Of a DNA stretch of 64,000 nucleotides, positions 3,394 through 36,606 are shown piece after piece (position 1 is the first letter of the stretch; every line of letters starts with the position of its first letter). Source of the DNA: Sulfitobacter sp. S190 (lineage in GTDB: Bacteria > Pseudomonadota > Alphaproteobacteria > Rhodobacterales > Rhodobacteraceae). The notes beneath the pieces are model-generated. The model ran no database searches and was not told the DNA's origin. It saw only the letters and a program-made list of their open reading frames with translations. The stretch lies in contig NZ_CP081124.1 of the NCBI RefSeq assembly GCF_025141935.1, positions 1-64,000 on the forward strand. Reading direction: 5' to 3'. Made by a program: the position numbers and the translations under genes.

Positions 3394-6300
3394 TCAGAAC
3401 TTCGCGATGAAGTTCACGAATACGCCCTCGTCGTCATAGGTCAAATCCGTCAGATCGTCGGAAAAAACGCCCCGAGTTATACCCGATCCCCAGCTTCACG
3501 TTCTGGCCGACATGGCGATAGACGGCGCCCAGCACACCGTATTCTTTCAACTCCGCATCCGTCGCCTCGAGGTAGCGCCCTTCGACCAGCAGATCCCATT
3601 TGTGCGTCAGGTGATAGCGCGCGTTCACGACCGCGAGATAGGCATCGTTGTCGGCCAGAGCGATATCCTCGTCCGGCGCGGATTCGCCCCAGCGGCCACC
3701 GATCTTGCCACCGATGGTCCAGGTCTCGTTCAGATCGTAATCCGCATCCAGCGACAGCACATGGCTTTTCTGGCGCGGTCCGCGTTCTGTCGTCCCGTCA
3801 AGCTCTTGGCCGATGCTGTCCCTCAGATACCGGTATTTGAACAGCACGTTCAGACGGTCGTTATCCACCGGCCGGAAGGCATAGCCCACCTGCGCATCGA
3901 CGTATTCGCCGGTCAGCAACGAGCTGTTGTCGGTGTCCGTATCGGCATAGTCCAGCGACAAAAGCACCCGCTGGCGTTCGTCGATCTTGTAGCGGGCCGA
4001 GGACACGAAAAGGAACGCGTCGCTGTCGCGGTTGGTGCCCGACGTCTCGCCCCGGTCGCGCCGGAATTCGGCACGGGCGCGGGCGGACAATCCGTTTTCG
4101 CTCTCGTAGCGCAGACCAAGCGACAGCGCCTTGCGGTCAAAATCCCCGTTGTCGAAGTCGCGGATTTCCCCGTACTCGAAGCTGCTCGACAGCGTCAGCG
4201 CCTCGGTGGTGCGGTATTCCACGCCGTAGGTGCTGGTCAGCGCCTTGTAGTTGCCAAACAGGTCATAGGTATTCTCGGCATAGACATCGACGTCCTCATG
4301 CAGACGGCGGCGCCCGCCCACCACGTATTGGCCGCGGTCCCGACCAACCAGATCGGCCCCGCTGAATTCACGGCCCGGGTCCAGCTTGTAGCCGAAGTAC
4401 GTGGAGTTGTTTTCGTCCTTTTCATACGTCAGCAACGCGGTGCCCGCAGACCCCAACGATCCTTCCGAGACTTCGCCCTCGAAGGTCCAGTGCTCGGCGA
4501 AGCGGTAGCGGACCCCGACGCCCGCGCGGTTGTTTTCTTCCAGTCCGCCGGACCGCTCGATCGTGCCCTGCCCATAGACATACCACGCAAAATCATCACT
4601 TTCGGTAAAGGTCGCACGCACTGCCACATCCGTGCGGCTGCCGTTTTCGTCGTCATCGCCCCCCGGTTCGTTACGGTCCAGATGCTCGGCCCCGAAATCA
4701 AGCCGCACCCGATCGCTCAGCAGATAGGTAAGCTCGGCACCGCCCTCGCGTTTGCGCGCGCCATCGTCATCCTCGAAACTGTCGAAATAGAGCCGGTAGG
4801 CCAGCCGTTCGGACGCCTCGATATCGACGGACACGCCCCACAGCTCCTCATCGACGCGGGTTTCGTAGTCAAGCGAGCTGAACCCCGCGTCGCGCCGCTC
4901 GAAATAGGCCGCGAAGGTGCCCGGCGTCTGCAACCCGACGTCCGCGAAATCCACCTGCACCCGCGCCGCATATGCCGATCCGGTGCCGTCCTCGACACCC
5001 GCCGACGGGTCGCTCTCAACAATAAGCCCGCCGTCCGCCGAAAATGTGCTGCCAAATCCCGGTCCCTCGGTTTCGGCGTATTCCAGTTCCAGAAAGCTGC
5101 GTTCGCTCAGCTCATACAGCAGATCGACCGACTGGGCCGTCTGGTCGGCGATATCGGTCTGCTCGACGATCCCGGTATAGCCCAGCCGCACCGTGTCGCT
5201 GACCCAGGCCTCCGCCCGCCCGCCATAGCTGTAGCCATCCACATCGCCCACCGCGGGCGTGTATTCGTAATTGGCCACCAGCAGCACGTCGTATTCGCCA
5301 CCCGGCTGAGTGACGACCGTTCCCGCCGCCGCCGATCCGCTGAGCGGTTCGGTCAGGACAATCGTGCCTTGCAGGTAATTGATCCGGTAATCGCGCCCCG
5401 CGACCAACGTCCGGCTGTCGACAACGCGCCCCGAATCGCGGTCGCGCAACTTGATGCTGAGCGTCTCGGTATCGACCGAAATATCCTGCCGTTGCAGAAA
5501 ATAGACCGATCCGCCGGTGCCCAGAAACGTATCGCGTCCGGGCAGGTTGTCGGGATTGGCCGCATAGGCTTCGACCGAAACCTGCGACTGACCACGCGTC
5601 GTGGTCTGGGGGCTGCGGTACACACCCTGCGCGCCATACAGCGTACGCTCGTTGCGCAGGTAATACCCGCCCGACACCGTCGCCTTGTAATTGCCCCACA
5701 TGATGTGGCTGCCGTTCTTTTCGGCCCGCAGGAAGAACTTGCCGTCGGTGGGCGCGCCTTCCTCAAAGGTGCTGTCATCGCCGTATTCGGGATAGGCATC
5801 CTCGCGCTGCAACCGCAGCAGCACGTTGTAGGGGTCTTTTTCATCCAGATCGCGGAACAGGTCCGACAGATCGTCCTCGCCGGTATCGACCGATCCGGTC
5901 AGGATCCAGCCGTTCTGCGTCTTGCCCTTGGCATAGCCCGCGATCCGGCCATAGGTGAAGGTTCTGTCATACTCTTCGCCGCCCGCGCCCTCGACACCAC
6001 CCTCCAGCCTGCGACCTGCCGTCAGATCAATAATGCCGGTATAGAACCACTCGGCGCGCGGAATGAAGATGTCGCGCTCGACATAGGTGTCCTCGCCCGC
6101 GCCATCGACCTGCACGATCACCGACTGGTCGCCGGCGGGCAAAATGCGCTGCAAGACAAAGGTACCGTCGGGATCGGGCCGTACCTCTTCGCCCAGCGTG
6201 TTGACCACCGCACCGCGCCGGACATCGCTGCCGCTGACAGTCACGGCACCGCCGTAAACAGGAATGCGCCGGATGCCGCCCGCGTCCTCGCCCAACTCGG

Positions 6301-6856
6301 GCGGCGGCGCATCAAGGTCGGTATCACCCACCACGTCGATGGGCCGGATCGGCAAGGGCCGTGTTTCGTCAAACCGGCCTTGCGCATCATAGACGCGGTA
6401 GACCATGACCAACCCGTTGTCCTCGCTCTGCGGCAGGCGGACGGACGCATCGCCATTGGCGTCGATCGGCGCGGTGGCAACCACACGCGGCCCCCCGCGT
6501 GCGGCCGTGTCGATCACACGGATTTCGCCGCGGGTGACATACGCGGGATAGTTCATCTGGCTGCGAACCTGCATCACGTCACCCGCACGCGGTGTGCGTT
6601 CGTTGGTGATGATCGCGTTCAGACGCGGCTCCACCTCCAGCCCGTCGAACTGGACCCGCAGTTTGGCGCGCTCCAGCACGCGGTCCTCGCGGGCCTTCGG
6701 CGTCGACAGGCGCGGATCACCCGCAACGGTCTGGCCATCGATGGAAATGCTGAAACCTGCACCGTCCTGCGCGTGGCCTTGGGCGGCGACACTGATTGCG
6801 ATAGCCGAAGCACCGGTCAGGGCCAACATGCGGGGTGATCTTGCTGTCATCCTCAT
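3394..6856 (-). CDS. Large outer-membrane beta-barrel protein partnered with the DUF11 giant (C-terminal frameshift)
   Basis: Signal peptide at residues 1 to about 29 (ALTGASAIAISVAAQGHAQ), then an Ig-like region to about residue 290. The rest, to the C-terminus, is a long beta-rich part with alternating polar and aromatic strands, typical of a large outer-membrane barrel. I prefer the ATG at 6856, which has GAGG 9 bases upstream; a GTG at 6871 overlaps the stop of the giant gene (GTGA). The uncorrected frame ends at 3434 as RFFRRSDGFDL. Removing one A from the A6 run at 3462-3467 gives FSDDLTDLTYDDEGVFVNF and a terminal KF at 3394, the aromatic end expected for Bam-inserted barrels. The length is then 1,153 residues. 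I cannot name a family; secretion or anchoring of the giant is inference from the gene pair. Confidence 0.7.
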
Positions 6857-6867
6857 TTTCTTGTCCC

Positions 6868-9800
6868 TCACCGTTTCTTCGTCACGGTTTTTTCAATCGT
6901 TAATTTGTAACTGCCCCGCCCGCGCCAGCGTTTGCGGATCGCTTTTTCCATGGCGCGCAGTCGGGCGCGGCCCAGCGTCGGGTCTTCTCCGGGATCGAGC
7001 AGATAGGTCAGATGCAGGATCGACGGTGTCTGCGCAATCTGGCCCACCAACCCGTCAATCGCGCCCGCCAGATTGGCCTGCGGTTCGGTGCCGCCATTGG
7101 CGAACGCACTGCGCGTCAGGTCGATGTCCACCACCCGGCCCAGCCGCGCACCGAAGTTCAGCTTGGCGAATTTACCGGCCGTCAGCCGGACCACACGGGG
7201 GTTTTCGGTCGTCACACGGTAGCCGGTGGGCAAGGTGCGCGTGTCCAGCTTGAGCATGAAGTTCGACCCGATGTTGCGCGGCAGCGCGGCACACGGCAGC
7301 GAATAGCGCCCGTGCTCGTCCGTGGTGATCAAGATGCCGTCCGGCGTTACCAGCCGCACGCCCGGTATGCCCGGCTCCGACTGGTCCTCGCGGGCGGGTG
7401 CGCGGTCCAGCTTGCCGAATTTGCCGCCGCCCACATAGCTGTCCTCGATGATCGGATCGCGCAAGGTGCCCGGCCCGTCCTGATAGCCGTTGCCGTTGCG
7501 GTCGTTGAACACGCGGCCAATCACGTCCGAGCAATCGAACACATGCTCGGGATCGATCCGCACGTCCGCCGTGGCCACGTTCGACACGACCCGGCCAAAG
7601 CTGTTTTCGGCAAAGGCGCGGTTGGTCCGCTTGCCGAATTCGCCGGTGCGCGCAACCCTTGCCGCAAAGGTGATCACCACCGTTTCGCCCGCCGCCAGAT
7701 CATCGCGCCACTCAAGGCGCCGAGCCTCGGACGCAGGCGCCGCCGCAATACCGTTCACACGCGCAGTGCCCGGTGTGAACAGCAATCCCGCGGGCAGGCG
7801 GTCGACAAACCGCGCGCCGTTGATGTCCAGTTCGGTATTATTGGTGAAGGACAGGATATAGTTGATCGTCTCGCCAAAGACAGCCGTGCTGCGGTCCGCG
7901 GTTTTGGTGGCGACCACATCCGCCAGACCGTCACAGGCACGGATCGGGATGTTGTTGCCGATGATGAACGGATCGCCCGCCGCGATTGTAAAGCTGGTGT
8001 AGAACGGATTGCCCGCCGCCGTCCCATCCGCAAGCAGCCCCGTCTCTCCTGCCGGACCCGATCCGATCACACCGGGATTAGACGGCAGCAGGCTGGTCAA
8101 GTCGAGGTTGCCAAGGCTCACCCGCGCGGTCGAGGCCACGGTATCTTCGGGATAGGTCAGCCCGAGCGTATAGGTTCCGGGTTCGGTCACGAAGAACTGG
8201 TAATTGCCCTCCCGGCCGTCCGCGATGATGGTGATCGGACCGCTCGATCCGACACCGCTCTGCGTTACGCCATTGCCACTGACGCTGATGCGTCCACCGG
8301 TCAGAAGCCGCCCGTCGTCCTCGCAATAGAAACTGCCCGTGGGGTCATAGTCGAACCGGTCGGCGATACCATCGTCGTCGCGGTCGCCCGTGGGCGATTC
8401 CAGCCGGTCGGGGATGCCGTCACCGTCCTGGTCCGTGGTCTCGACCACGACATCGCCTTGCGTGACCTCAAGCAACTGTTGCGACACGACGCCGGCGGTG
8501 TTGGGCGCGCCGGGCTGGCCGGTGGCCGTGTTGTAAACAACGCTCAGCGTGACAACCCCCGTCGCCCCGGGCGCGAGCGTGGCATCCCCGGCCAACAGGT
8601 TGATGTCACTCGATCCGTTGAACCCCGCATTGGGGCTGCCGCCGTCAAAGCCCGACAGGCTGATCTGGGGCGGATAGCTCTGGGCCAGCAACGTGGCCGG
8701 CGCAAGGAACGCCACCAGATCATCACTCACCTGAATGGCGTTCTGCGTGATGTTGCCGGTGTTCGTGACGGTGATGTCAAATGTGGTGCGCAGCACGGTG
8801 GGGAACAGGAACTCGATGTCACCCGCGACCGTCTTTTCGATGTCGAAACTCGGCAAGGGGACGACAGGCGTCACAGTCGGATCGTCGTCGCCTTCGCCAT
8901 CGTCATCCGACACATCCTGCAGGGTGCCACCGGTCGGCGTGGCCGCCGTGCCGGTGATGGTGTTGACCACGCCGCCCGCATCGATGTCGTCCTGCGTCAG
9001 CTCCAGCGTCGCGGCATAGCGCGCGGTTTCACCGGGCTGCAGCTGGCCCTCGGGGGACGGCACGTCGGCATTTTCGTTGCCCACGAACTCCAGCGCCAGC
9101 GCCCGCGCGTTCTCGCCCTCCAGATCGGTCAGACTGTCGGTCAGCGCCACGGCGCTCAGCGTGACGTTGCCGGTGTTGGTGGCCGTGATGTCATAGCGGA
9201 CACTGTCGCCCGCCCGCTCGCCCACTTCGGGCGCAGTCTTGACGATGCGCAAACCGGGTTCCAGCACGATCTGCAGCTCTGTCGGATCATCGGTCAGGTT
9301 GCCGTCGGTTTCGATCCCGTCGTTGGACACCCCGATAACCGCCGCCTGTCGCACGTCGAGCCCACGCACCAGCGCCGAGTTGGCCAGCCCTCCTGCGTCG
9401 ATATCGTCCTGCGCCAGCACATAGTTCACACGCCAGCGGGCCGTCTGCCCCGGTGACAGCGTGGCGGGCACGTCAAACGGCTCTGCCGTGGCAGGAACGC
9501 TCGTGCCGTCCGCCCGCGTCATGCTGTCGTCCGCCCTCAGCCCGTTGATGTCCTGATTTCCGGTGTTGAGTGCTGTGATCTCGAAAACCACCGTGTCGCC
9601 GACCATGTTGCCCGTCTGCAGCACGGTCTTTTCAACGTAAAGGCCCGCCTCGGTTGCCACGGTAAATTCGGTCACGTCCGATTGGGTCTCCCCGTCCGTG
9701 TCGATGCCATCGTCCGACACATCGGTGACCGGCGCGTTCTCTGGGTCGATCGCGCTGACCTGCACCTGATTGCGCAGCCCGCCCGCGTTGAGGTCCTGCT

Positions 9801-12800
9801 GCGTCAGCGTGCGCGTGGCGGTGTAAACCCATGTCTCGCCCACATCCAGAACGCCGTTTCCATCCGTGTCGCTCGCCGGACGCAACGCGAACGGCGCATC
9901 GAGCGCGATGGCGGTATTGTCGAAATCCGTCATCGTATCGACGACCGACAGATTGCGCAGGCTGACGTTGCCGGTGTTTTCCACCCGAAGGGTAAACACA
10001 ACCGGCGCACCGGCGATCGACGCGGCAGGGGCCACCGTCTTGGTCGCCTCGAGACTGCCATCGCGGTCCGGCCCGTCCGTGGTCAGCGTATCTTCGGCGC
10101 GCGCGGTCGTATCGCCCGGCCCCGTGCCGGTCACAACGGCCCTGTTGTCGATAGATCCCGCATCGATATCGGCCTGCGTAATCACGCGGGCGAGGCTACA
10201 GGTGGTGTTCGTCGCACCCGGTGCCAGCGTCGCAATCGCACAGGTATAATCGGGGTCCATCACGTCTGTCAGCGCAAGATCGGTCAGCGTGACATTGCCG
10301 GTGTTCTCCACCGCAAAGAGATAGGTCAGCGTGCTGCCCGCATCGCCGAAAGGCGTCGGTGTCGCGGTTTTCGTCAGCCGCAGCCCTGGTGCTGCGGCAG
10401 GCATGTCAACGGTCAGGATACGGGTGTCGCCAACGCTGCCACCCTGCGGCGTGATGCCTGTCGCAGTGGCCGTGTTGACAAGGCTGCCCGCGTCCACATC
10501 CGCCTGTGTCACCGTATAGCTGCCGGTACATTCCAGCACCGCGCCCCGGATCAGCGCATCCTGCTGACAGCTGAACCCGCGCAGCATCGGATCGCGCACC
10601 ACAACATTGCGCAGCGTCTGGTTGCCGGTGTTCGTCGCACGCAAGGTATAGGTCAGGACCTGATCGGCCCCCGTCACCGGCAGCGTGGCCGCGGATTTGG
10701 ACAGCGCCAGCGCCGGTGCCACCTGAGCGGTCACGCTGACCGCGCTCGGGGGCGATGTGACCGGCGTATCGTCAATGCCGAACAGGGTCTGTGCAAAGGC
10801 TTCGTTGAGAATTTCACCGCGGTCGAGGTCTTCCTGCGTCACGGTATAGGGCGCCGAGCAGGTGACCGTTTCACCGGCGCGGAAGTCCGGATCGGCCGCC
10901 GTGGGGGTATAACACAGCAGATCACCGGTCAGCCCGTCACGAATTGTAACCTCCGACGCAAACGCCCGCGTACCGGTATTCGTCACCGCAAAGTCATAGG
11001 TGATCGCATCGCCGACCTCGTCGAAGGTGGTCCCGTCTGCCACGCTCTTGACCACTTGCAGCGCGGGCACACCCTGATCCGGCACCGTCTCGGATGTCAG
11101 GGGCGATGTTGTCGTGCCGTCGGTGGCACTCGCCAGATTGGTCACGCTGCCCAGATCGACATCCGTCGATGTCACCGTGTAGGGCGCGGTACAGACATAG
11201 GTGGCACCGGGGGCCAGCCCGTCCGCGGGGAACGCAGGACAGTTGATCGCCGTGGCGGGTACCAGATTGTCGCTGATCGTCACCGGATCGGTGATCGTGA
11301 CGTTGCCGCTGTTGGTCGCGGTGTAGGTATAGGTGACAATCGCACCGGTCACGAAATCCACCGCTGAAATGCTGGCGGCGGTCTTGTCCAGCGTCAGCGC
11401 GGGCGTCTGCTGGGCCAAAATCGTGTCGGTCGATGGTTCCGACACCGTGGTGCCGCTGGTCGCGGTCGCGCTGTTGTCGATCCGGCCCGCGTCGATGTCC
11501 TCCTGCGTGACGGCATAGGTGCCGGTACATGTCAGCGAGGCCTGCGGCGCGAGCCCTTCCGCGGGAAGCGCGGGACAGCTCAGCGTGCCGCCCCCGTCGG
11601 TCAGCCGCGCGTCGGTGATGCCCACCGGATCGGTCAGCGTCACGTTGCCGGTGTTGGTCACCTCGAAGAGATACCCGATGGATTGCTGGACCGTGTCAAA
11701 GGTCGCCGGGCTGTCGGCCGCGCGCGATTTTACAAGGCTCAGCGCAGGCGCCGCCGGCACCTCGAGCGTGGTGGGATCATCCGCATCGTTGCCGTCGGTG
11801 TCATCGCCGTTGTCGGTCACATCGGTGATCGGGCTGCCCACGGGCGGCGTCCCCGTCACCCGCGCGGTGTTGCGAATGCCGCCCGCGTCGATATCGGCCT
11901 GCGTCAGGGTATAGAACGCGCGATAGGTCGCGGTTTCACCGGGCACCAGCGTCCCTACCGGCGACGCCGCATCGGCACCCGCAAACGTCGGGTCCGCGTC
12001 CAGCGCCAGCTCCGTGCCATCCGCCCGTGTCAGCGTGTCCGACGCAATCGCCACATCGCGCAGCGTCACATTCCCGGTGTTGGTGACCGCAATGGCAAAG
12101 CCGATCGTGCTGCCGACGTCGGGCGTGCCCTGGGCAATCGTCTTGGTCCCCTCGATGCCCGGTTGCGCGGGGATCTGGGTCAGCGTGGGGTTATCGGCCC
12201 CGTTGTCAGTGATGCCGTCATCGGATGCGTCTTGAACAAGACTGTCATTGGGCGACAGGGCCCGCGCGGTGACCTGATTGGTGATGCCACCCGCGTCCAG
12301 ATCTTCCTGCGTCAGCGTGTAGCGGGCCGTGTAGGTCCATATCTCGTCAACCTCCAGCACATCCGCCACACCTGCGTCGCCATCCACGAAAACGGGCTGT
12401 GGGGCGGGAATGACCGTGGTGCCATCGGTCCGGCGCAACGTGTCGATCAGGGTCACCGACCGCAGCGTCTGGTTGCCGGTGTTTTCGACCGTGATGGTAT
12501 AGGGCAGCACATCGCCCACTTCGGGGGGATCGGCCACATCGGTCAGATCGACGCGCTTGATGACCTCCAGCAGCGGCGTCTGGTCCTGCGGTTCGATCTC
12601 GAGCGTGGTCTGCACGTCGGTCGGTGTGCCATCGGGGGCGCGGGCACTGGCGGTCGCCGTGTTGGACAGGGTCGTCTGGGTGTCGACATCGTCCTGCGTC
12701 ACTTCGTACGTGGCGGTGAATGTCACCACATCACCGGGGGCCAGCGTGCTCCACACGCCATCGGCATCGGTGGCATCCGTGCTGTCATCCGCCGGGGCCG

Positions 12801-15800
12801 CATCCTGCGACAGGGCCTCGCCCCCGACATCCAGCGCCACCGTGCCCGCGGCACCGGTATGCTCGTCCGCCACGCCCACACCGCTGAGCGTGACATTGCC
12901 CGCGTTGGTGACGGTATAGGTATAGGTGACGGTTTCTCCCGCGGCGACACCATCGGCGGCGTCGGCGGTCTTGACGATCTGCAAACCGGGGGCCGGGGCC
13001 AGCGGGGTCAGCGTCGGATCCTGCGCACCCGGCAGCGCACTGTCATCATCCGACAGATCACTTGTCGGCACGCCCGCGGCACTCACACCGGAGGCTGTCG
13101 CCTGATTGCTGAGGCTGCCCGCATCCAGATCATCCTGCTCCAGCACGTAGGTCGCGGTAAATACCACCGCATCCGCCCCGACCGGCAGGTCCAGAACGCC
13201 CGCATCGCCGCCCAACGCGGCACCGCCACTTGCGTATTCCGGCGACGGGGCATCGCCCACACCGCCAAAGGCCGTTTCCGCAACAGCCACATCCAGCACA
13301 TCGACCTGACCGGTGTTGGTGACGGTATAGGTATAGGTGACGGTATCGCCCGCATTCAGGACATCGTCATCGCCATCGTCGATCTCTGCCGTCTTGATCA
13401 CCGCAATCGTGGGCTGCCCGTTGAGCACGATCGGCCCTGTGCCGCCCGTCCCCACAACCGGCTGATCCTGCGGATCGCGGGTGGTCACATCGACCGTATT
13501 CTCGATCCCGGCCGCATCAATCGCCGTCTGGGTCAGATCGAAGCGCGCGGTATAGACAAACGTCTCGCCCACATCGAGCAGACCATTGCGGTTGTCATCG
13601 CTCGCCGGAACCAGCGTCGGCCCCGCGTTGAGCGTTTGCACCCCACCGTCGAGATCGACCAGACGGTCGGTCAGAACCGGCGCATCCAGCGTCACGTTGC
13701 CGGTATTCTCCACCTCGATGCGGAACGGCACCGACTGGTTCGGCTGCGCAGGTGTGGTGATGTTGGATTGATCGGCGGTCTTGGTCACCTGCAGACTGGC
13801 GGCTTTCACGCGGGGCGCCACCGACGCATTGGCCTGCGCGGGCGATACCGGATCACCGTTGGGGTCATCCGCCGTCACCGTGGCGATATTGGTCAACGCG
13901 GTCTGCGCGTCCACATCGGCCTGCGTCACGCTGTAGGTCGCGGTAAAGCTGACGACATCGCCCGGTCCGAGCGTGCTCCAGATGCCCGGTCCGGCCGTGT
14001 CGGGCGACCCTCCCGTCTCGTTGATATCGCTGGTCAACCGGTCGGCACCGACGCTCAGCGCGGCCGTGCCGGACGCAGAGGTGTGCTGATCGGTGACCGT
14101 CACATCCGACAAGGTCACGTTGCCGGTGTTGGTCACGGCATAGGTATAGGTGATGTCCTGACCCGCTATCACATCACTGCTGGCATCGGGGGTCTTCGAC
14201 ACGCTCAGCGACGGGGACTGGCCCGCGTCAATGGTAAGTGTCGCACTGTGAGTGGCGCTCGGGACCACCTGCGACGAGGTAACGGTGGCAACATTTGTCA
14301 CCCCGCCATTGTCCAGATCGGCCTGCGTGACGCGGTAATCCGCGCTACAGCTATAGGTCTCGAACGGGCCCAGCCCGCCTGCGGGGAAAGGGGCGCAATC
14401 GAAAGGCGTGTTGCCCAGCTTGTCGTCGGTCACCTGCGGTGTTTCGGTCAGGGTCACGTTGCCGGTGTTGGCAACAGTATAGGTATAGGTGATCAGCTGG
14501 TTCAGGGTGGTGATTTCAGTGGTGTCCGACGTTTTGGCCAGGCGGAAATCGGGCTCGCGGTCGGGGCCGCGGACAAAGACGTCACCGGACCGCGTGATGG
14601 GGTCCAGCGCCGTGTTGCGCGGTGTCGCCGTCACATTCGCCGTGTTGGTAAACCCGCCAAAGGTGGCACCCGCATCGGTGTTGATGACGTCAATGTCATC
14701 TTGGGTGACGGTATAGACAAAGATGCAGCTGCTGTCGGTATCGCCGGGCGCAATCGGCCCCACGCTACAGCTTGTCGGGCTGACCAGACGCGTATCGGTG
14801 ATGACGGCGCTTTCCAGTGTCTGGTTGCCCGTGTTCTCCACATCCACGCGGAACTCGATCTGCTGACCCGCGATCGAGAAATCCGTATCCGGTCCGGGCG
14901 GGCGCAGCGCGCTCTTGGTGACGATCATCTCAACCGTCGGCGCCACGATCGTGGTGGTCCGCTGGGCGGTATCAGACACGGTCACACCCTGCGGATCGCT
15001 GGCCGTGCCGGTGGCGGTATTGACCAGCGTCTGCGCGTCCACATCGGCCTGCGTCACCACATAGTCGCCGGTACATACCAGCGCACCACCGGGGGCAAGG
15101 GTCACATTGGCCGTGGCCGCCGCATTGCCCGGCGTCGTCGTACAGCTCAGCGTCGGGATCAACGGATCGCTCAGCGTCACACCAAACAGCGTCTGGTTGC
15201 CGGTGTTGGTCGCTGTGATCTCATAGCTCAGCGTCTGGTTCAGCGCCGCACCGTTCGGCACCGCCGTCGTCAGCGTCTTGGCCACATCCAGCGCGGCCCC
15301 TTCGGAAATGGTGACCGTGGCGTCGGCATTGGGCGACACCACCGACGTGGGCGAGCTTCCCGACGCGGCATAGGTCGTTTGCGCGGTGGCGTTGTTTGTC
15401 ACGAAACCCCGGTCAACGTCGTCCTGCGTCAGCGTATAGGGGAAATCACAAGTGATCGTCTGGCCGGTGGCAAGCGCGGGTGCCCCGTTCGCCACGGACG
15501 CCTTGCACACCAGCGGGCCCGCGATCGTGTCGTCGACAATCCGGATCTCCTCGATCAGACCCACGTTGCCGGTGTTCTGCACCGTGTAGCGATAGGTCAC
15601 CACATCCTGTGGGCTGTCGAATGCCGCGGTGCCATCGGCGGGGCTGCCGCTCGCGGGCAAGGCGACCTTGGTCAGGCTCAACGCCGGGGCCGCATCGACC
15701 GGATACACCGCGTCATCGCTTGGCGATACGATCGAGCCGCCGTCAAAGCTGCCGACCGCCGACACCACATTGGTCGACGATCCCAGATCCAGATCGTTCT

Positions 15801-18800
15801 GGCTGACACTATAGGTCGCGGTACAGGTATAGGTCTCGCCGGGGTTCAGCACATTTCCGGCCAGCGTCCCGCAGGTGAAATCCGCCGGATTGGTCACGAG
15901 GTTGTCGTTCAGCGTGATTGGCCCGTCGATGGTCACGTTGCCATCGTTGCGCACCACGTAGGAATAGCTCAGCTGGTCATTGAGGTTGAACACACCGGGG
16001 TTGTTCGTGCCGGTGAACGTCTTGACGATTGCCAGTGACGGGTTCTGCACTGCATTGATCGTGACGCTGTCTGCCGGGGATTGCACCGGGGCGCTGTCGA
16101 AAACGGTATCGGCAGTCGCGATGTTCGTGACCTGCCCGTCGTTGAGCGCGGTCTGGTCGGCGCGGTACACCTGCTCGCACGTCACACTGTCGCCCGGAGA
16201 AAGCGGCGCGGTGGTGCAGGTCAGGGTCCCCGCGATCTTGTCATCGTCGACTGTGATCGGCGCGGTGGTGGTCACGTTGCCCGAATTGGTCACGACATAC
16301 TCGAACGTCACCAGATCGTTGACCGCACCATAGCTTGCCGCCGACCCGCTCTTGACCCGCTTGAGCAGGCTCAGCGCCGGACGCTGGGTCGCCTCGATCG
16401 TGACATCATCGGGCAGCGACGTGGCGGTGACAGTCGTCGGATCACCGGGGTTCTGCGGGATCACCGGTTGCGTGACACTCGCCGTGGCAACATTCGTGAT
16501 CTGCCCGTCGTCGAGCATCCGCTGCGTCACCGTCGTTGACGCGGTACAATCGATAAAGGCACCCGGCGCAATACCGGCCGCCGGCGTGATCGGGCAATTG
16601 ACCTGCGCAATGCTGTCGTCGGCCACCGAAATGCGCCCCGTCAGCGTGATGTTGCCCGTGTTCGTCACCCGGTAGGCATAGTCGAGCTGCTGGCCCAACG
16701 TGTCGAACCTGCCGGTAAAACTGCTGGATTTCACGAGGCCGACCGCGGGCACTTGCGGCGGACCGGTCACGGTCACGCTATCGGCATCGCTGACCGCGGT
16801 GCCCTGTTCGCGCGACTGTCCCGTCACCTCGACCCGGTTGGTATAGCTGCCGCGGTCCACATCCCCCTGCCCGAAGGATTTCGTCTCGGCCAGCGCCGGT
16901 GCCCCGCCCGCACAGGTGGTGGTGAACGCACCGGGAAGCAGATCGTCCAACGCACAGTTGAAATTCAGATCATCATCGCGCAGTTGCAGGTTCGACAGGG
17001 TCACATTGCCGGTGTTGGTGACCCGGAAAGTATAGTCTTCCGTGTCAGTGGCCGAGGCATAGCTGCCATCGGTGCTGAATTTCTCAACGCGCACGGATGC
17101 GGCTTCTGCAGGGCCGGTCACCACGGCCACATCGCTCTGCCCGCCGGGGTTGGTCACACCGCCGGGCACATCCACGGTCACATTTGCGGTGTTCGTCACC
17201 TCGCCCGCATCGATGTCTTCCTGATCAGTCAGATAGCTGGCGGTACAGCTGCGGTCCGTCGCACCGGGCAACAGGCTGGGGATGATGCAACTCACCGGGT
17301 TGCCGAAAAACGGATCGGTGATGGTGACATTGGTCAGGGTGACATTGCCGGTGTTGCGCACGCTCAGCACATAGTCGATCGTCTGGTTCGCGGCGGTGAA
17401 CCCCGAAGGGGCCGTTTTCTCGAACACGTAACTGGCGGTCCGCGCGGGGCCGTTCACAGATGCCGTGCTGTTGTCTGCCGTGATCTCGGGGCTGTCGACG
17501 GTGGCGGTGTTGGGCACCGATCCGCGGTCGATGTCATCCTGATCGACCGTGTACTGGAACCGGCAGGTCCGGTCGGTGACACCGGGGGCAAGCCGCGCAA
17601 TCGCACAGCTGTAGCCCGCATCAAGACTGTCGGTCACCGTCAGATTGCTCAGCGTCTGCGTGCCGTTGTTGGTCACCGCAAACACATAAGTCAGCTGATC
17701 GCCCACATTGGCAAACGTCGTCTGGTCCGCCGTCTTCGCGATCACCGCCGATTTGGTTCCCGCCCCGGACTGCAGGTTGGCCGTGTGCGTGTCATTCGCC
17801 GTTTGCTGGGGCCCGCGGGCGGGCTCGGCCTGCACATCGGCGCGGTTGGTGAATGTCTCGTCGTCGATGTTGGCCTGGCTTACGGCATACTGGCCGGTAC
17901 AGGTATCGCTGGTGCCCGGCGCAATATCGCGCAACACACAGTCCAGATCCGGGATCAGCGGGTCCGTAACCGTCGCCCGCGTCAGGGTCACGTTGCCATC
18001 GTTGAACACTTCAAATCTGTAGTTCAGCGTTTGGTTCACGGCGTTATAGGTGGCCGGACCCGTCTTTTCCAAACGCACGACAGGATTGGCCGTGGCCGGA
18101 ACGGTCGCCGTGCTTGCATCGGAGGTGATCGTCGAGGTGGTGCCACCCGCTGGGGTGAACGGAAAACTGGCCGTGGCCGTGTTCAGAACGCTGCCCGCAT
18201 CCAGTTCGGCCTGCGTGACGCCACTGCGCTGACCGGTACAGGTAAAGCTGCTGCCTGCCCCGCTCTGGGTCAGGGTGGCGGGCTGGCTGCACACCGCCGC
18301 CGCGCTCAGCGCGGGGTCATTGATGGTGATCGGATTGTCGGCCAGCGTCAGATCACGGTCGCCGGTATTGGTGACGGTAAAGACATAGTCGATCGTGTCG
18401 GTGGTGGTCGCGACGCTTGCTGTGGTCGAGGTTTTGACAACCGACACCGACGGCATGAAATCCGGCGCGATCTGGGCGCTGACCTGATCGGAGCGCGTGC
18501 TGCCCGCGAATGCGGTCGCCGTGTTCACGACCAGTCCCGCCGAAATATCTGCCGGCGTCAGCTCGTATTCCCGGGTACAGGTCTGGGTCTGGTTGCGGTT
18601 CAGGGGCGTGGCGAAACACGTGAAATCACCGATCTTGTCGTCGGTGATGGTGATTTCGCTGACCCCGATGTTGGACGCGATGCGCACGTTGCCGGTATTG
18701 CGGACCGCAAAGGTATAGGTCACGCGGTTGCCGGCAACGAATTGCGCCGCCGTCACCGTGGGTGCGGTCTTGGTCAGTTCGATCGCGGGGTTCTGGTCCG

Positions 18801-20841
18801 CCGGGACGGTCACGCTGTCGCTGTTGGATGTGACGGTGCCGCCGTCGGGGCCCGCAATCGTCGCCGTGGCCGTCGCGGTATTGGTCACGCCGCCGCTGTT
18901 CACGTTGCCCTGAACCGTGCTGTACACCGCCGACTGACAGGTGACCGACGCCCCCGGCGCGATGGTCGTGTCGCTACAGGTGACCGCCACGCGGTTGTCC
19001 GTCACCGTCGGGTTGAGCAGTGCGACATTGCCGGTGTTGGTCAGGACATAGTCATACTCCAGCCCGATACCCGGCGCGTCGAAACTGCTTGGCGATGCCG
19101 CGTCCAGCTGTTTGTCCAGCGTCAGACCGATCCGGCGATCCGCGTTGACGGTCGCGCTGTCGGTGTCGGTATCCGACGATCCGCCCACGGTGATGCTGGC
19201 CGTGGCGGTGTTTATGAACGAGCCGCGGTCGATGTCATCCTGATCCACGGTATAGCTCGCGGTACAGGTCACCGAATTGCCCGGCGCCACCGGCCCCGCA
19301 GGACATGTGACAGCACCCGCATCCGGATCCGTCACCGTGGGGGCCGCAGGGAAGGTCACGTTCGAATTGTTGCGCACCACCAGTTGGTAGCTCAGCACAT
19401 CGCCCACGCTGTCATAGCTGTCGGTCAGTGCCGTCTTGGTCAGCTCCAGCGACACGTTGGACGCAGGGCCGGGCAAGTCAACGGTATCCGTCTGCGTCAG
19501 ACGGCCATCGCGCGGCGTGTCCGCCGACACGGTGACCGTATTGCTCAGCTCGTTGGCCGGATTGGCGGTAAAGCGGTCCACATCGGCCTGCCGCACGGTA
19601 TAGCTGCCGGTGCAGGTAAAGCTGTCGTCGGGCGCCAGATCGGGCACATTACAGCTCAGCTGCGGGATCAGGCTGTCGCTGACGGTGAAATTGCGCAGCG
19701 TCACATCACCGTCGTTGCGGATCAGAAAGCTGTAGGGCACCGATGTGCCCGCTTCACCAAAAGCGCTCAGGCTCGATGATTTCTCCACGAACAGATCGGG
19801 CGATGCCGCAGGCCCCGTCACCGTCACCGTATCGGTCAGCGTGTCGATCGAGCCAAAGTCCGGCACCCCCGTCACACTGGCGATGTTCGTCACGCTCTGG
19901 TTGTCGAAATCTTCCTGCGTGATCTGGTAGGTCGCCGTGCAGGTCGCGAAATCCGCGGTGCCTCCGCGCACGGTATCCTGCACCACACGCTTGTCACAGG
20001 TGGCGGTGATGTTGCCGATCTTGTCGTCGATCAGCGTCAGTTGCCGGATCGGCACCGACCCGATGTTCGTGATCCGGTAATCGTAAGTGATCGTCTGGCC
20101 AACCTGGGTAAAGGTGCTGGTGCGCGCGGTCTTTTCCATCTCCAGACCGGGCGCCACGGTGACGATGTCGTTGTTGTTGAGGCTCCGGCCCCGCGTGAAA
20201 TCCCAATAGTTGTCATTCGGGCTGTCATCGAAAACCTGTGTGGTCGTCTGGCCGGTGGCAAGAATATTGGCCAGCAACGCAGGGTTGGTCGATGAAAACC
20301 AGCCGGTGTTGAAGGTGTTGTTGCCGAACCCCTGCACAAACCCGAACCCGCGGTTGCCGTTGGTATTGGTGATCTCGGTCCTGACGTCCGACCAGTTGCC
20401 GACGTTGAACCCGTTCAGGCGCAGCGTGATCTCGTCCTCATCGAACCCGCCGGTCTGCGTGTCCCCGTCGTAGGCCGAGAAGCGGATAAAGATATTCGAC
20501 AGCGCCCCGCCAAAATAGGTGGCGCATTCCGAAAACCCGCAATCGAGCGTCAGCGGATCGTTGATGGTGAACGGATTGCCGCGGAACCGCGTGGGCTGGC
20601 CGCGGAACTGGAACCCGACAAACGCGCCCGCGGGGTTGGAGAACTGGTAATAGACATTGCCATTCACACCAACCAGAACAAAGGCGACCCCACCGGCTTC
20701 GGGATAATCATCGGGCAAAGTGAAATTGGTACCGGGCGGTGTCTGGGTAAACTGTGTCGCCTGCGCCAGCGATGCCGCGAACAAGGCCCCCATAAACACG
20801 ACGCACCGCACCAGCAGTCCGAAAACCGAAAACTTGTCCAT
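6868..20841 (-). CDS. Giant DUF11-repeat surface protein (4,657 residues)
   Basis: A secreted protein with a signal peptide ([20 protein letters not shown], residues 7-26). A unique N-terminal domain runs to about residue 235. It is followed by about 33 repeats of 110-130 residues of the DUF11/TIGR01451 type; each starts near a KT motif, passes VTNTGNVTL and ends near [14 protein letters not shown]. Around residues 4134-4170 lie Asp-rich [13 protein letters not shown] and [15 protein letters not shown] segments like thrombospondin type-3 calcium sites. One last repeat (about 4308) and an SdrD-like B segment ([18 protein letters not shown], about 4435) precede a basic C-terminal tail ending TVTKKR. 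The start ATG has GGTGAG upstream. The downstream barrel gene overlaps its stop. It is probably an extended surface adhesin or stalk; no catalytic domain is seen. Confidence 0.85.
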
Positions 20842-21053: not shown

Positions 21054-22253
21054 CTATAGACCGTCTGGTGACATCGCGTCCCAGAACGCCCAGATCGCAT
21101 CGGCGTTCAGGGCCGACATCCAGCCGTGGCGCTCGAAATCATCACGCGCGGCCGGATCGGCGATACGGCTGGCAAAGGCGCGGCGGTCGGCATCGCGCTG
21201 GGTGGGCGTGCGTGCCGCAACCAGATCACGTATCCGCGCCAGCCGCGCGGCCCGCGCCGTCTGCCCCGCACTCAGGTCCGGCGCCGCGTCTACCGGCGCC
21301 TCGAAATCATCGCGCAGCGCCGCCGTCAGATAGCCGACCGGATTTTGCACATCCCCCTGCCCCGCTACATACGAAAGCTTGCGCGCGACATATGTCTCGC
21401 CGTGCTCGGCCAGCCATTGCCGCGCCAGCCTGTCCGTCACCCCCAACGCCCGCAACCGCGCATAGACAGGGCTGTTGCGCACCCCTGCCCCGTCGTCGAT
21501 GTTCAGGATCGCCAGTTGCGGATTTTCCTCGATCAGAAAACGGATGTCCGTCACCGACCGGCCGCGCTTGCGGATCTCGGGGCGGATCACGATGTTCGAC
21601 GTCTTGTTCACCTCGGCCACCGCCGGTTTGATGATCTTGGCGTTGAGGTGCTTGTAGACCTCGTAATAGCTGCTGTCCGCCACCCCCATGAGCCGCCGGA
21701 ACAGATCGAGGCTCCACCAACCGGTGCTCCCCGTGCGCACGAACCGGTAACAGTTTTCGTAAAGCGCCAGCGCATGGCCACTGGTAAACGCCCGCTGGAT
21801 GTTGAGGTTGATCAGGGCAAACACCTTGGGGTCGCTCAGCTTGGCAGCCAGGGCAGGCGAATAGGCATATTCGCACACGCCCCCCTTCAGCTTGGCGTAG
21901 CTCAGCAAACTCGACACACCCCATTCCTGTTCGCCTTTCGCATCCAGCATGTCCCATTCGGCGACCGTCTCCGCCAGCCCGCGCAGCGATTGCTTGAGCG
22001 TGTCCATGTCATTGGAATTATACCCCACCATCAGGCACAGCGTGCGCGCGTCGATGGCGTGGGTCTGTTGGCTGGTCAGCGTGTCATAGGCATTCAGCAG
22101 CAGCACGTTCGACAGTTTGCGTTGCAGCAGGGTCAGCTTGCCCGAAACATGGATCGCCGCGACATGTTTCTTCACCGCATCGCGGCGCAACGATCCGGTC
22201 AGCGTGCTGCGGTCAATCTCCGGCCCCTTGGGCCTGCGGTCCACTTTGGTCAT
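21054..22253 (-). CDS. repB: Plasmid replication initiator, Rep_3 superfamily (RepB type)
   Basis: A 399-residue initiator that binds iterons and opens the origin. The N-terminal part reads HVSGKLTLLQRKLSNVLLLN and YEVYKHLNAKIIKPAVAEVN, characteristic of the two winged-helix domains of Rep_3 proteins. I start it at the ATG at 22253 (MTKVDRRPKG) with GGGGCAG upstream; the frame is open further upstream, but that part is not protein-like. The upstream 500 bp carry four iterons and TCCCGTA half-sites. The divergent parAB and downstream location match the RepB-type replicons of Roseobacter-group plasmids. The assignment to Rep_3 is by motif recognition. Confidence 0.88.
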   Translation of the reverse strand: MTKVDRRPKGPEIDRSTLTGSLRRDAVKKHVAAIHVSGKLTLLQRKLSNVLLLNAYDTLTSQQTHAIDARTLCLMVGYNSNDMDTLKQSLRGLAETVAEWDMLDAKGEQEWGVSSLLSYAKLKGGVCEYAYSPALAAKLSDPKVFALINLNIQRAFTSGHALALYENCYRFVRTGSTGWWSLDLFRRLMGVADSSYYEVYKHLNAKIIKPAVAEVNKTSNIVIRPEIRKRGRSVTDIRFLIEENPQLAILNIDDGAGVRNSPVYARLRALGVTDRLARQWLAEHGETYVARKLSYVAGQGDVQNPVGYLTAALRDDFEAPVDAAPDLSAGQTARAARLARIRDLVAARTPTQRDADRRAFASRIADPAARDDFERHGWMSALNADAIWAFWDAMSPDGL

Positions 22254-22320
22254 ATCTGCCCCTGCTCGGCGCGCCCCGGATTCGGGGCTTTTATTTTTGC
22301 CATAGTATCGGCACAAAGGT

Positions 22321-22405
22321 TCCCGTAGGCAAGCACTCTTGAGGTACCTGAATACGGGACCGGGTGTCGCGTACTGCGGCACCGGAAAGGAACCAATTTA
22401 CGGGA
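22321..22405. promoter_or_regulatory. Half-iteron-like sites upstream of repB (possible autorepression operator)
   Basis: TCCCGTA at 22321-22327 faces TACGGGA at 22353-22359, and a further TACGGGA lies at 22399-22405. These match the TCCCG(T/C)(G/A) core of the downstream iterons, in opposite orientations. Rep_3 initiators often repress their own gene by binding inverted half-iterons as dimers, so this is a plausible operator for repB, whose ATG is 68 bp away. Confidence 0.5.
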
Positions 22406-22471
22406 TCGGCCCGCTGCCCCCCGACTCAGAAACCCCGAAAACAGGCTCTAACACGACATGAACCGCAGTAT

Positions 22472-22558
22472 GGGCCCCTTCCTCACGCGAATCGGGCCCC
22501 TTTATCCCGCAAACAGGTCCCTTTCGTCCCGTGATTGGTGCCCCTTCGTCCCGCGTAC
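22472..22558. repeat. Four tandem iterons of about 22 bp: likely replication origin (oriV)
   Basis: Four direct repeats start at 22472, 22494, 22516 and 22537, in order: GGGCCCCTTCCTCACGCGAA, GGGCCCCTTTATCCCGCAAA, GGTCCCTTTCGTCCCGTGAT and GGTGCCCCTTCGTCCCGCGT. The shared pattern is GG-(1-2 nt)-CCC-TT-N2-TCCCG. Spacing of 21-22 bp (two helical turns) is what Rep_3 initiators use. They sit between divergent repB and parA. Confidence 0.85.
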
Positions 22559-22573
22559 GGGCACCCCGAAACA

Positions 22574-22700
22574 TCTAACCCTCTGATTATGAGTAGGATT
22601 TATAACCCAAAGCTTCTAAAGCTGATAAAGATCTTACAACTATATGTCGTCGTTTGATCAATATTAGACTATGATGGGCGTATAGATTGCAGGTTCTCAA
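22574..22700. other. AT-rich segment beside the iterons (candidate DNA unwinding element)
   Basis: Directly after the iterons the composition turns strongly AT-rich (stretches such as TTATGAGTAGGATTTATAAC and GATCAATATTAGACTATGAT) in an otherwise very GC-rich window. AT-rich DNA next to iterons is the usual melting site of an origin; it may also contain the parAB promoter. No clear DnaA box was recognised. Together with the iterons and half-sites this accounts for the roughly 520-bp gap between repB and parA. Confidence 0.55.
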
Positions 22701-22771
22701 TTCACATGCGCGAACCGATGTGCGAAAGATTACCGAACATCGCAATAAAAAACGAACATCACAGAGGTAAT

Positions 22772-24163
22772 ATGGCAAGCACAGGCAAGAGCGACACCCC
22801 GGCGTATTTCAACATTGACCCCGCCAAGGCCGCAGAAACACTTTCCGATCCTATAGACACCGCACGTTTTGCCAAGGCCGCAGCATTTGCTGCCCGAGGT
22901 CGGGACGATCTGGCCAAACGGGGCTATGCGCCGGACGGGCGCAAACGCCTGCGCAAATTCTCGACGTGGGAAGTCTGCCGCTACCTGCTGAACGTAGCCC
23001 CCGCCCATCTGCGCCGCGTGCTCAAGGGTCACCCCGATCTGCCGCAGGGAACGGGCGAAGGCAATTCGCGCTGGTTCACCCTCGATGACGTTTTGGTGCT
23101 GCGCGACCACTTCGCGACTGAAGGGGCCGCCAACCGCGAATACAAGTCGTGGCGCCCCGAAGGCTTGCCGGCCAAGGTCATCTCGGTCGCGAACTTCAAG
23201 GGCGGCGTGGGGAAGACCTCGACCGCCGCGCATCTGGCCATGTCCGCGGCACTCGACGGCTACAAGGTGCTGGTCATTGATCTCGACAGCCAAGGGTCCA
23301 TGACATCCATCATGGGCGGCGACGTGCCCGATGAATGGTCCACCGCCTTCCCCCTTCTGGCCAAGGATTACGCGCGCCACGTGCAGGCCGAAAACGAGGT
23401 GCGGCGCGCCGCAGGGCACAACGAACTGCCGCTTGACGAAACATTAACCGAAAGCCTCGGGGTTTCGCCGCGAAACCTGATCCAGCCGACACATTGGCCC
23501 AACATCGATCTGATCGGTGCGCAACTGAACCTCTACTGGGCCGAATTTCAGGTGCCCGTCTGGCGTATGCAGGCCCGCAACTGGCCGCTCTGGGATGCGC
23601 TCACAAACGCGCTGGAGGACGAGAAGATCCTCGATGAATACGACATCATCCTGCTCGATACGCCCCCTGCCCTCGGCTACCTCACGATCAACGCACTGGC
23701 CGCGGCCGACATCCTCGTGGTGCCGCTGGGAGCCTCGTTTCTCGAGTTCGATTCAACGGGGCGTTTTTTCGATATGCTCTATTCCACCTTCGCCAGCATC
23801 GAGGATGGCGAGAATTCCGTCAGGCGGCGCGATGGTCTGCCGGAAATGAAGTTCGAATGGGACGCCGTGCGCGCGCTCATCACCCGCTTCGATGCCGGTC
23901 AGCAGACCGATTTGGCCAACGTGATTCAGGCCTATTTCGGGGATTTCATGGCCACCTACCGCCAAGAGATGACGGCGATGGTCGGGCAGGCTGGCGAACA
24001 GGTCAATGGTATCTATGAAGCCGACTACCGCGCTTTCAACCGTGATACCTACGTCCGTGGACGCGAGACGTTCGATCAGACATGGGCCGAAATCAAAACG
24101 GTTCTGCTGGGCACTTGGTGGCGCGATCAACAGATGGCGCAAGCCACGCAAGAGGAGGTTTAG
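22772..24163 (+). CDS. parA: ParA-family plasmid partition ATPase
   Basis: A 463-residue ATPase that moves plasmid copies apart by nucleoid-bound ATP cycling. The N-terminal ~130 residues (KFSTWEVCRYLLNVAPAHLR) form an extended DNA-binding region of the larger ParA type. The deviant Walker A motif is FKGGVGKTSTAAHLAM, the A' motif is VLVIDLDSQGS, and IILLDTPPALGY is the Walker B region. The ATG at 22772 has AGAGG at the right spacing; an upstream in-frame ATG lacks one. It is followed 3 bp later by parB. A 15-bp palindrome identical to two other copies lies inside the gene at 23462-23476. Confidence 0.95.
   Translation: MASTGKSDTPAYFNIDPAKAAETLSDPIDTARFAKAAAFAARGRDDLAKRGYAPDGRKRLRKFSTWEVCRYLLNVAPAHLRRVLKGHPDLPQGTGEGNSRWFTLDDVLVLRDHFATEGAANREYKSWRPEGLPAKVISVANFKGGVGKTSTAAHLAMSAALDGYKVLVIDLDSQGSMTSIMGGDVPDEWSTAFPLLAKDYARHVQAENEVRRAAGHNELPLDETLTESLGVSPRNLIQPTHWPNIDLIGAQLNLYWAEFQVPVWRMQARNWPLWDALTNALEDEKILDEYDIILLDTPPALGYLTINALAAADILVVPLGASFLEFDSTGRFFDMLYSTFASIEDGENSVRRRDGLPEMKFEWDAVRALITRFDAGQQTDLANVIQAYFGDFMATYRQEMTAMVGQAGEQVNGIYEADYRAFNRDTYVRGRETFDQTWAEIKTVLLGTWWRDQQMAQATQEEV
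23462..23476. other. parS-like centromere site 1, inside parA
   Basis: GTTTCGCCGCGAAAC, a perfect palindrome around one base. Here it is read in the frame V-S-P-R-N, whereas the identical copy in parB is read in a different frame, so the conservation is at DNA level. Confidence 0.75.
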
Positions 24164-24166
24164 ATC

Positions 24167-25270
24167 ATGGCAAAACGCAGAAAGCTCGAAGCTCCGAACG
24201 CCGATGATCTGGCGCGTATCGAAGAGGAGTTTCGCCGCGAAACCCCGGTGCGCGGCATGGGTGCACCCATAAGTCAGGTGGCCGCCGAAACGGCACAAGC
24301 GCTGACCCGCGAAGATCCCGCCATCCGCGCGAAACGGGCCCGCGACAGTGCGGACGCACAAAGCCTCAGAGCTGCCGAGGCGGAAGGCCGGTTGCTCATG
24401 GATCTCGCGCTCGAGGACATCGATACCGATGCGATGGTACGTGACCGGACGGTGCTTGAACCCGGTGCGATGGCCGAACTTCAGGCATCGATCGCGGCCA
24501 CGGGGCTGCGCCTGCCGATCGAGGTTTTCGAGCTTTCGGGGCAGGGGGGTGATGGCCCCAAATACGGTCTTCTGTCAGGCTATCGCAGGCTGCGGGCGAT
24601 GCAGGCGCTGCGGATCGAGCGGGGCGAAGGCTATGGGCGGATCAAGGCGATCTTGCGCAGCCCCGACGTGATGGGCGGTGCCTTTGCCGCGATGGTCGAA
24701 GAGAACGAGGTCCGCGCCAACCTGAGCCATTTCGAGCGGGGCCGCATCGCGGTCATCGCGGCGCAGCAAGGGGCTTTTGACAGCGTGGAGGGCGCCGTGA
24801 ACGGGCTGTTTCCGGTGGCGTCCAAGGCCAAGCGGAGCAAGATCAGATCCTTCGCCGTCATCTTTGAGGAACTGGGTGATTTGCTGAGCTTCCCCGAGGC
24901 CCTGAAAGAGCGGGAAGGCCTGCGCATTGCGGCGGCCCTGCGGCAGGGTGCAGAACGTGATCTGCGCGCCGCGCTGGAGAGCGGGGCAGGGGGAGATCCC
25001 GCGTCTGAGTGGGCGGCGATGGAGCCGGTATTGGCCCGGTGCGAGGCACTGCCAAAAGACGGGGCAGGGAAGGGCGGGAGGCCCCGGACAAAGGCCCCGC
25101 AGCCGGGTTGGAAAGACGCGGAAACGCTGGTTCTTTCGAGTGGTATCACCCTGCGCAAAGCGCACGATTCAACCGGCTATACCATCCGTTTCGAAGGCAA
25201 GGGGCTGGACAGTGATCTGATGGATTCGGTCATGGCGGAGCTTCAATTCCTGCTCGAAAAGCCGGAGTGA
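24167..25270 (+). CDS. parB: ParB-family partition protein
   Basis: A 367-residue centromere-binding protein. The ParB/Sulfiredoxin-like N-domain is visible: VRDRTVLEPGAMAELQASIA, then the GLLSGYRRLRAMQAL box and MVEENEVRANLSHFERG. A helix-turn-helix-like middle follows, and the C-terminal part probably dimerises. Start ATG at 24167 with AGGAGG upstream and 3 bp after parA, so the two are one operon. A parS-like palindrome lies near its 5' end and another begins at the last base of its stop codon. It should load on these sites and stimulate ParA. Confidence 0.94.
   Translation: MAKRRKLEAPNADDLARIEEEFRRETPVRGMGAPISQVAAETAQALTREDPAIRAKRARDSADAQSLRAAEAEGRLLMDLALEDIDTDAMVRDRTVLEPGAMAELQASIAATGLRLPIEVFELSGQGGDGPKYGLLSGYRRLRAMQALRIERGEGYGRIKAILRSPDVMGGAFAAMVEENEVRANLSHFERGRIAVIAAQQGAFDSVEGAVNGLFPVASKAKRSKIRSFAVIFEELGDLLSFPEALKEREGLRIAAALRQGAERDLRAALESGAGGDPASEWAAMEPVLARCEALPKDGAGKGGRPRTKAPQPGWKDAETLVLSSGITLRKAHDSTGYTIRFEGKGLDSDLMDSVMAELQFLLEKPE
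24229..24243. other. parS-like centromere site 2, inside parB
   Basis: Identical 15-mer GTTTCGCCGCGAAAC, read here across the codons for F-R-R-E-T, a different frame from the copy in parA. This supports selection for the DNA site rather than the protein sequence. Confidence 0.75.
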
Positions 25271-34578: not shown

Positions 34579-34589
34579 CTGTCAGCCCC

Positions 34590-35114: not shown

Positions 35115-35219
35115 CTGTTGGCCATAGCCGTACCGGCACGCCGGGGCGTGGAGGTATCAGGCGGGGCTGTCGGAAACGGGGGGTGACGGGCGCCCGTGCG
35201 GGGGCACCCGTCTGTTGGT

Positions 35220-36368: not shown

Positions 36369-36389
36369 CTTGGTTCCTCCCGTTGAGAC

Positions 36390-36575: not shown

Positions 36576-36606
36576 CGCGGGCCTTTCAGCAGCTGATTCT
36601 TCGATT

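Follow-up and report, generated by a model that had tools for sequence, protein, structure and literature searches.

By what means very long surface proteins leave Gram-negative cells is understood for only a handful of routes, and the question is raised by a locus of Sulfitobacter sp. S190 (NCBI RefSeq assembly GCF_025141935.1). The window, by which we mean the whole stretch of DNA that was analysed, is 64,000 nucleotides long (contig NZ_CP081124.1, positions 1 to 64,000), and at 3394..20841 it encodes a giant DUF11 repeat protein followed by a predicted outer-membrane barrel. Do the two belong together, and what might the barrel do with the giant? A first-pass annotation had proposed a two-gene surface system, and the two-gene part is strongly supported by conserved pairing and by natural one-chain fusions. 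In a collection scanned with one genome per species, 209 barrel relatives were confirmed, and the best 80 of these 209 were compared as 79 loci. A protein carrying the giant's conserved C-terminal module (C2) lies directly upstream of the barrel on the same strand in 72 of the 79; two loci, both from Roseicyclus (L061, L066), have the order swapped, with the barrel first and the giant directly after, and the other five begin no more than 90 bases from a contig end. The pair is thus side by side in all 74 loci with room to tell (72 C2 first, 2 barrel first). Conserved pairing, homology to one-chain forms and junction modules make the association of giant and barrel well supported, and we hold it highly probable that they form one unit. 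The parts of the locus are as follows.

6868..20841, minus strand: giant protein, 4657 amino acids (open reading frame (ORF) list and Pfam)
20758..20841, minus strand: Sec-type signal peptide of the giant, judged by eye from the sequence
8635..20160, minus strand: 32 DUF7507/DUF11 repeats in tandem, residues 228-4069 (Pfam and own-repeat profile)
7597..7923, minus strand: final DUF11 repeat, standing apart, residues 4307-4415 (Pfam and own-repeat profile)
7144..7548, minus strand: C2 part 1, SdrD_B-like domain with two cysteines that are invariant across 30 sequences
6871..7152, minus strand: C2 tail, about 90 amino acids, candidate docking tail; OmpA-like by eye, no Pfam OmpA call
3434..6871, minus strand: barrel frame, 1145 codons counted from the GTG at 6871 (ORF list)
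6062..6754, minus strand: N-terminal region of the barrel protein, two Ig-like folds; approximate, mapped from a relative's model
5306..5518, minus strand: small beta-rich insert after the eighth predicted strand, plug candidate; approximate, mapped from a relative
3437..6061, minus strand: barrel proper as read in the window, without its last strand (alignment and a relative's model)
3394..3462, minus strand: frame slip and conserved barrel end in another frame (alignment with relatives)

The pairing was also surveyed in samples of genomes at the family and class levels, with 'beside' taken as the same strand and less than 1,500 nt apart. Among 295 genomes of the family sample, a C2 place lies beside 33 of the 39 places of two-gene-type barrels, and a barrel place beside 33 of the 37 C2 places. 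These counts use 39 of 59 barrel rows (leaving out one-chain rows with open frames of 1735-2079 amino acids, a weak row in G100 and second pieces in G081 and G000) and 37 of 52 C2 rows (leaving out one-chain rows and second pieces in G253 and G081); the survey scored the best two barrel candidates per genome, so absences are soft. The unpaired barrels are those of G080 and G224 (both at a contig start), that of G213 and fragments in G178, G173 and G307; the unpaired C2 places are two in G178 (at contig edges), G113:C62 and G256:C212. In the class sample of 240 genomes, seven carry a two-gene-type barrel, which lies beside C2 in five and not in two (G444, G548); G439 has a C2-like match without a barrel, and G546 only a 31-residue barrel fragment. 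The first-pass annotation would have given up the pairing if DUF11 giants were common without this barrel or if the barrel had unrelated neighbours, and the outcome of this test is mixed. DUF7507 repeats do occur alone, since among the matches listed 16 of 56 DUF7507 genomes in the family survey show neither barrel form, again with soft absences; it is C2 that is tied to the barrel (33 of 37). Start gaps were measured to the first start codon in a search that began 40 nt ahead of the C2 stop, a rule biased towards small gaps. The 6.5 kb downstream of the barrel served as a control: no gene family there is shared by more than 7 of 74 loci, and a third conserved gene of the unit was rejected on this count.

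Plasmid records give the same arrangement. Twenty-two match the barrel, 19 of them over at least 80% of its length, and the latter include plasmids of Sulfitobacter, Roseivivax, Sinorhizobium, Phyllobacterium and Eleftheria and a 2-Mb replicon of Vibrio campbellii. In five annotated records a large protein, named as DUF11, SdrD B-like, OmpA-family or hypothetical, is encoded directly upstream, and in the Vibrio campbellii record, where the upstream region is unannotated, a 3771-residue ORF precedes the barrel.

The 4,657-residue DUF11 giant was described correctly at first pass: its frame runs from 20841 to 6868 and is filled with DUF7507 (1864.8 bits, 32 stretches) and DUF11 matches in Pfam, and searching it with a profile of its own repeats gives 33 copies. 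Exactly two cysteines are present in 22 of these 33 copies and none in the other 11. The constant part of the giant is C2, which combines the SdrD_B-like domain with the tail, and not the DUF11 repeats. In the C2 alignment (A2, the window plus 29 of the C2 ORFs) SdrD_B is matched at E <= 0.1 in 19 of 30 members, with an E value of 0.0071 for the window's own C2; a sequence search for solved-structure relatives of C2 gave one weak, unrelated match. In three loci (L030, L031, L034) the upstream ORF ends in C2 and DUF11-type repeats are absent by profile, so the stalk appears exchangeable. Length varies widely: of 15 C2 ORFs that do not run off the 5' end of their locus the shortest has 949 amino acids, a 190-residue contig-edge piece aside, and an annotated giant on a plasmid of Sulfitobacter sp. 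S223 (L118) has approximately 6,458. That plasmid also carries a type VI secretion cluster, a few kb downstream of the barrel.

The barrel gene comes immediately after the giant. A GAGGGA site overlaps the giant's stop by two bases, and seven bases further on stands an ATG (6856), so the second gene is probably read by translation coupled to the giant, whether or not the codons overlap. The start is more likely the ATG at 6856 or 6850 than the GTG at 6871; the close coupling implied by the 'overlapping codons' of the first-pass annotation is thus likely, and the overlap itself, which needs the GTG, is not certain. At its other end the barrel frame slips near 3457..3462, within a T run, and stops at 3434, while the conserved final strand is present in a different frame ending at 3394. 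The end given earlier for the locus, 3394, is therefore that of another frame, although the conserved last strand does reach it. In the barrel alignment (A1, the window plus 32 of 120 listed out of 1,216 proteins) all 32 relatives are intact here and finish in the conserved strand from which the window copy diverges, which leaves either a sequencing error or a damaged copy in the window. Two further loci deserve mention: in L008/L010 (G054:C77) the barrel lies in two frames, possibly a second frame slip, and in L102 (1446-5756, minus strand) the barrel protein has part of its N-terminal region in two consecutive copies.

The Pfam matches of the barrel are all weak, the best being the outer-membrane barrel family PF13505 (E 1.4e-5, 25.8 bits against a cut-off of 28.7), and no relative of solved structure was found by sequence. 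An identity as TonB-dependent receptor was rejected, as neither Pfam nor NCBIfam gives a TonB-receptor barrel or plug family for the window barrel. The claim that autotransporter, RTX and two-partner secretion (TPS) motifs are missing holds, with none of these families matched by either protein in Pfam at E <= 0.1; RTX calcium-binding repeats, as in RTX adhesins of type I secretion, are likewise unmatched by Pfam in the window proteins.

A relationship is also found with proteins in which giant and barrel are one chain. Two loci that were weak in the first survey (L009, L011) proved to combine DUF11, an SdrD_B-like domain, Ig-like domains and a C-terminal barrel in one protein, and a protein search gave 111 one-chain relatives among 8,000 scored candidates, mostly of approximately 1912 amino acids, in Rhodobacterales and also in Pseudomonas and Coraliomargarita. 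In profile comparison with hhalign the two-gene and one-chain barrels align over 768 columns (probability 100%, E 3e-55), and C2 aligns with the DUF11-SdrD_B stretch preceding the one-chain barrel (99.5%, E 2e-22; one-chain alignment A4, L009 plus 61 of the 111 proteins). The window pair is therefore kin to the one-chain DUF11-SdrD_B-barrel family, with a homologous barrel, collinear DUF11 and SdrD_B upstream and the chain split. In a phylum sample the one-chain profile matched 60 of 249 genomes at E <= 0.001, many over parts only, and its solved-structure matches are the B domains of SdrD and UafA, an entry named OmpA-like, which covers the DUF11 stretch, and further weak ones. A cyanobacterial plasmid, pA of Kovacikia minuta (L116), has a DUF11-SdrD_B-type ORF directly before a barrel ORF, with one-chain-profile ORFs around.

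A second kind of fusion occurs in G548 (L099 1-14600, G548:C38), where a 4548-residue ORF joins a giant to a two-gene-type barrel; elsewhere in this genome a barrel and C2 proteins occur unlinked. A tree of 55 barrels separates the two-gene from the one-chain kind, each side with support of 100. The G548 fusion falls with the two-gene barrels, although the position of its long branch is not firmly fixed, and L109, a split pair accompanied by an OmpA-type third gene (by eye), nests among the one-chain barrels (forks 88-98). Cutting or joining of the chain has thus happened more than once. A further alignment (A3) comprises 55 loci and 12 proteins.

What holds the split chains together? In the G548 fusion a glycine-rich stretch ties the SdrD_B part of C2 straight to the first barrel strand, and both the C2 tail (approximately 90 residues) and the barrel N-terminal region (approximately 240 residues) are missing. 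Neither has a match in the one-chain family by profile comparison, and homology of either to the one-chain linker was rejected (hhalign probability 0.5% and 1.5%). Since tail and N-terminal region are both missing from fused chains, the simplest reading is that together they would join the split ones. Divergence of the tail tracks that of the N-terminal region after correction for barrel and SdrD_B (partial r 0.37, with 0 of 2000 permutations as high), and divergence of SdrD_B does not (partial r -0.22); both tests use 71 of 73 pairs, the window included, with L060 and L063 dropped for a truncated C2 ORF. The earlier suggestion that the N-terminal Ig-like region could receive the giant fits its loss from the fused giant-barrel, and should be read with a Vibrio pair in mind whose giant has no tail.

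OmpA domains point to where the junction lies. They occur near the N-terminus of the barrel protein in L101 and on the Eleftheria plasmid, and a Croceibacterium giant ends in one, after a stretch matching C2 as far as position 236 of 244. In known proteins, domains of the OmpA type bind peptidoglycan, and the junction of giant and barrel is therefore most likely periplasmic. The giant's C-terminus would lie inside and its repeats outside, because 33 Ig-like repeats could hardly stand across the periplasm.

AlphaFold models of two-gene and one-chain barrels (predicted local distance difference test (pLDDT) 82-84), made from relatives and not from the slipped frame of the window, predict an unusually large barrel of approximately 36-40 membrane strands with a domain inserted after strand 8. 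Strand numbers were read from the DSSP strings of the models; strands of fewer than 7 residues were dropped, some short strands were extended to 8 residues, and two of the strands in each set belong to the insert. SprA/Sov, a very large single-chain barrel of 36 strands according to passages of PMC9143113, is matched weakly by the one-chain model in Foldseek (TM-score by query length 0.13-0.16), with no sequence relation shown. No other family stands among the matches listed in the structure searches, which is no proof of a new fold.

We propose a dedicated role for the barrel, as usher-like pore and as anchor: the stalk would be exported through it N-terminus first until C2 stops it. We give this reading an even chance of being right. 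Both proteins would reach the periplasm by Sec, as the signal-like N-terminal stretches seen by eye in each suggest. With its many predicted strands, plug-like insert and N-terminal Ig-like domains, the barrel could act as a very large usher for a single client: the giant's repeats would exit through it, N-terminus leading, and form a long Ig-like stalk on the outside. The SdrD_B-like domain and tail would remain at the periplasmic mouth and bind the N-terminal region of the barrel, stopping transit and anchoring the stalk. Passage through the pore, surface location and docking partners are all inferred. The usher of chaperone-usher systems is a 24-stranded barrel with a plug and N- and C-terminal periplasmic domains; unlike FimD, the barrel described here matches no usher family (Pfam, E <= 0.1), and its client would be one giant chain instead of pilins. 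The wider claim, that this is a new export route in which a single-chain barrel of approximately 38 strands, of SprA/Sov size (36) or larger, is usher to one client only, a giant of up to approximately 6,500 residues stopped and held by its periplasmic C2, existing as one gene or two and fused and split in evolution, is made tentatively.

Several observations weigh against the proposal of a pore with a docked C2. Divergence of the tail also follows that of the barrel itself (partial r 0.25, 71 pairs), and correlation between linked genes cannot show contact. The Vibrio campbellii giant ends after SdrD_B without a tail, though its barrel has the N-terminal region; the tail is thus not obligatory, and SdrD_B itself may dock there. 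A tail-only profile search misses the Croceibacterium giant that ends in OmpA, and OmpA is not listed among the Pfam families of the 30 C2 members. The one-chain family has other Ig-like domains between SdrD_B and barrel. Adjacency is not universal, with near-full barrels and C2 proteins on separate contigs in G444 and G548, which belong to one family, and Foldseek TM-scores of the one-chain model are low (0.07-0.18 by query length among the matches listed).

The first alternative is that the barrel is an anchor only: the giant would cross the outer membrane by another route and then be held by the barrel, as SprF holds SprB in Bacteroidota. It ranks next because the SprB/SprF arrangement is published and similar on the map. 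According to passages of PMC9143113, SprB/SprF of type IX secretion, and type B C-terminal domains with PorP-like barrels (PorP/PorE), share with our pair a giant repetitive surface protein or adhesin, a conserved C-terminal module, a neighbouring dedicated barrel and, in some related loci, an OmpA-domain partner; a related split locus here likewise has DUF11-SdrD_B, barrel and OmpA-type gene (by eye) in a row. However, the PorP-like barrels described there have 14 strands against approximately 36-40 predicted here, the phylum is another, and the systems have no Pfam or NCBIfam family in common, with no type IX sorting domain or PorP/SprF barrel matched by giant or barrel in either database. 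SprA_N is also unmatched in the window's own genome, in a search whose 14 control genomes were equally silent. We consider an anchor without a pore rather unlikely.

Still less likely is an envelope connector or periplasmic scaffold, in which OmpA-type modules bind peptidoglycan, the barrel anchors the giant to the outer membrane and the repeats are not on the surface. OmpA domains in the barrel or giant of relatives are in its favour, and a large-barrel connector of outer membrane and cell wall, SlpA, is known in Deinococcus (PMC9388160); the wide range of giant lengths speaks against it, as would a rod of more than 30 Ig-like domains, probably too long for the periplasm. Passages of the same source also mention three predicted 38-stranded barrels in Deinococcus radiodurans, which like SlpA are large single-chain barrels; SlpA differs from this barrel in its 30 strands, coiled coil and SLH domains. 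That a repeat protein merely neighbours a porin or TonB-dependent receptor without functional link is very improbable and largely refuted by the 74 paired loci, the natural fusions and the missing TonB-receptor family, even though 7 of the 22 plasmid matches are annotated 'TonB-dependent receptor' and the genes are unlinked in two genomes.

Other secretion systems resemble the pair in part. Like autotransporters (type Va), the one-chain relatives and the G548 ORF have an N-terminal passenger and a C-terminal barrel, but the window pair is two genes and no autotransporter barrel family is matched; like two-partner secretion (type Vb), the split form has a passenger gene and a pore gene, but at E <= 0.1 the giant has no TPS domain and the barrel no POTRA. 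The barrels of these two types have 12 or 16 strands, far from the number predicted here. Type 11 (Slam-like) secretion systems, in passages of PMC12282271, also place a dedicated outer-membrane protein near its cargo and occur in the same bacterial families; the window proteins match no Slam/DUF560 family in Pfam, and a link was rejected because nearly all mentions of DUF11 in those passages are of DUF1194.

No published account of the pair or of the one-chain family was found in the literature searched, which lay outside subscription papers and preprints. The export and display route is thus likely to be undescribed, as first suggested, export and display being themselves conjectural. A two-gene unit of a giant repeat protein and an unusually large barrel is common to many marine and soil bacteria, and the fused relatives suggest that giant and barrel function as a single surface structure. 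This widespread pair, annotated as hypothetical or as TonB-dependent receptor, would supply a further family of mega-barrels. In marine Rhodobacterales, rhizobia and Vibrio, DUF11 giants would gain a defined partner and a testable cell location, and the natural one-chain and two-chain versions are a built-in test of the same machine.

Beyond the pair, the window carries the following context.

21054..22382, minus strand: Rep3-family replication initiator (Pfam)
22706..25270, plus strand: ParA and a weak ParB-like match (Pfam)

At 33250..61650 follow TRAP transporter genes, ZrgA, an FtsX/MacB-type permease, two amidohydrolases, an MFS protein and an AraC-type regulator, and this plasmid cargo (TRAP transporter, ZrgA, permease, amidohydrolases) gives no hint of function for the pair. 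The source contig has 78,481 bases and is one of 6 in the assembly; with Rep3, ParA and the weak ParB-like match at 21054..25270, and with close relatives on named Sulfitobacter plasmids, it is the plasmid-type replicon that the first-pass annotation took it for.

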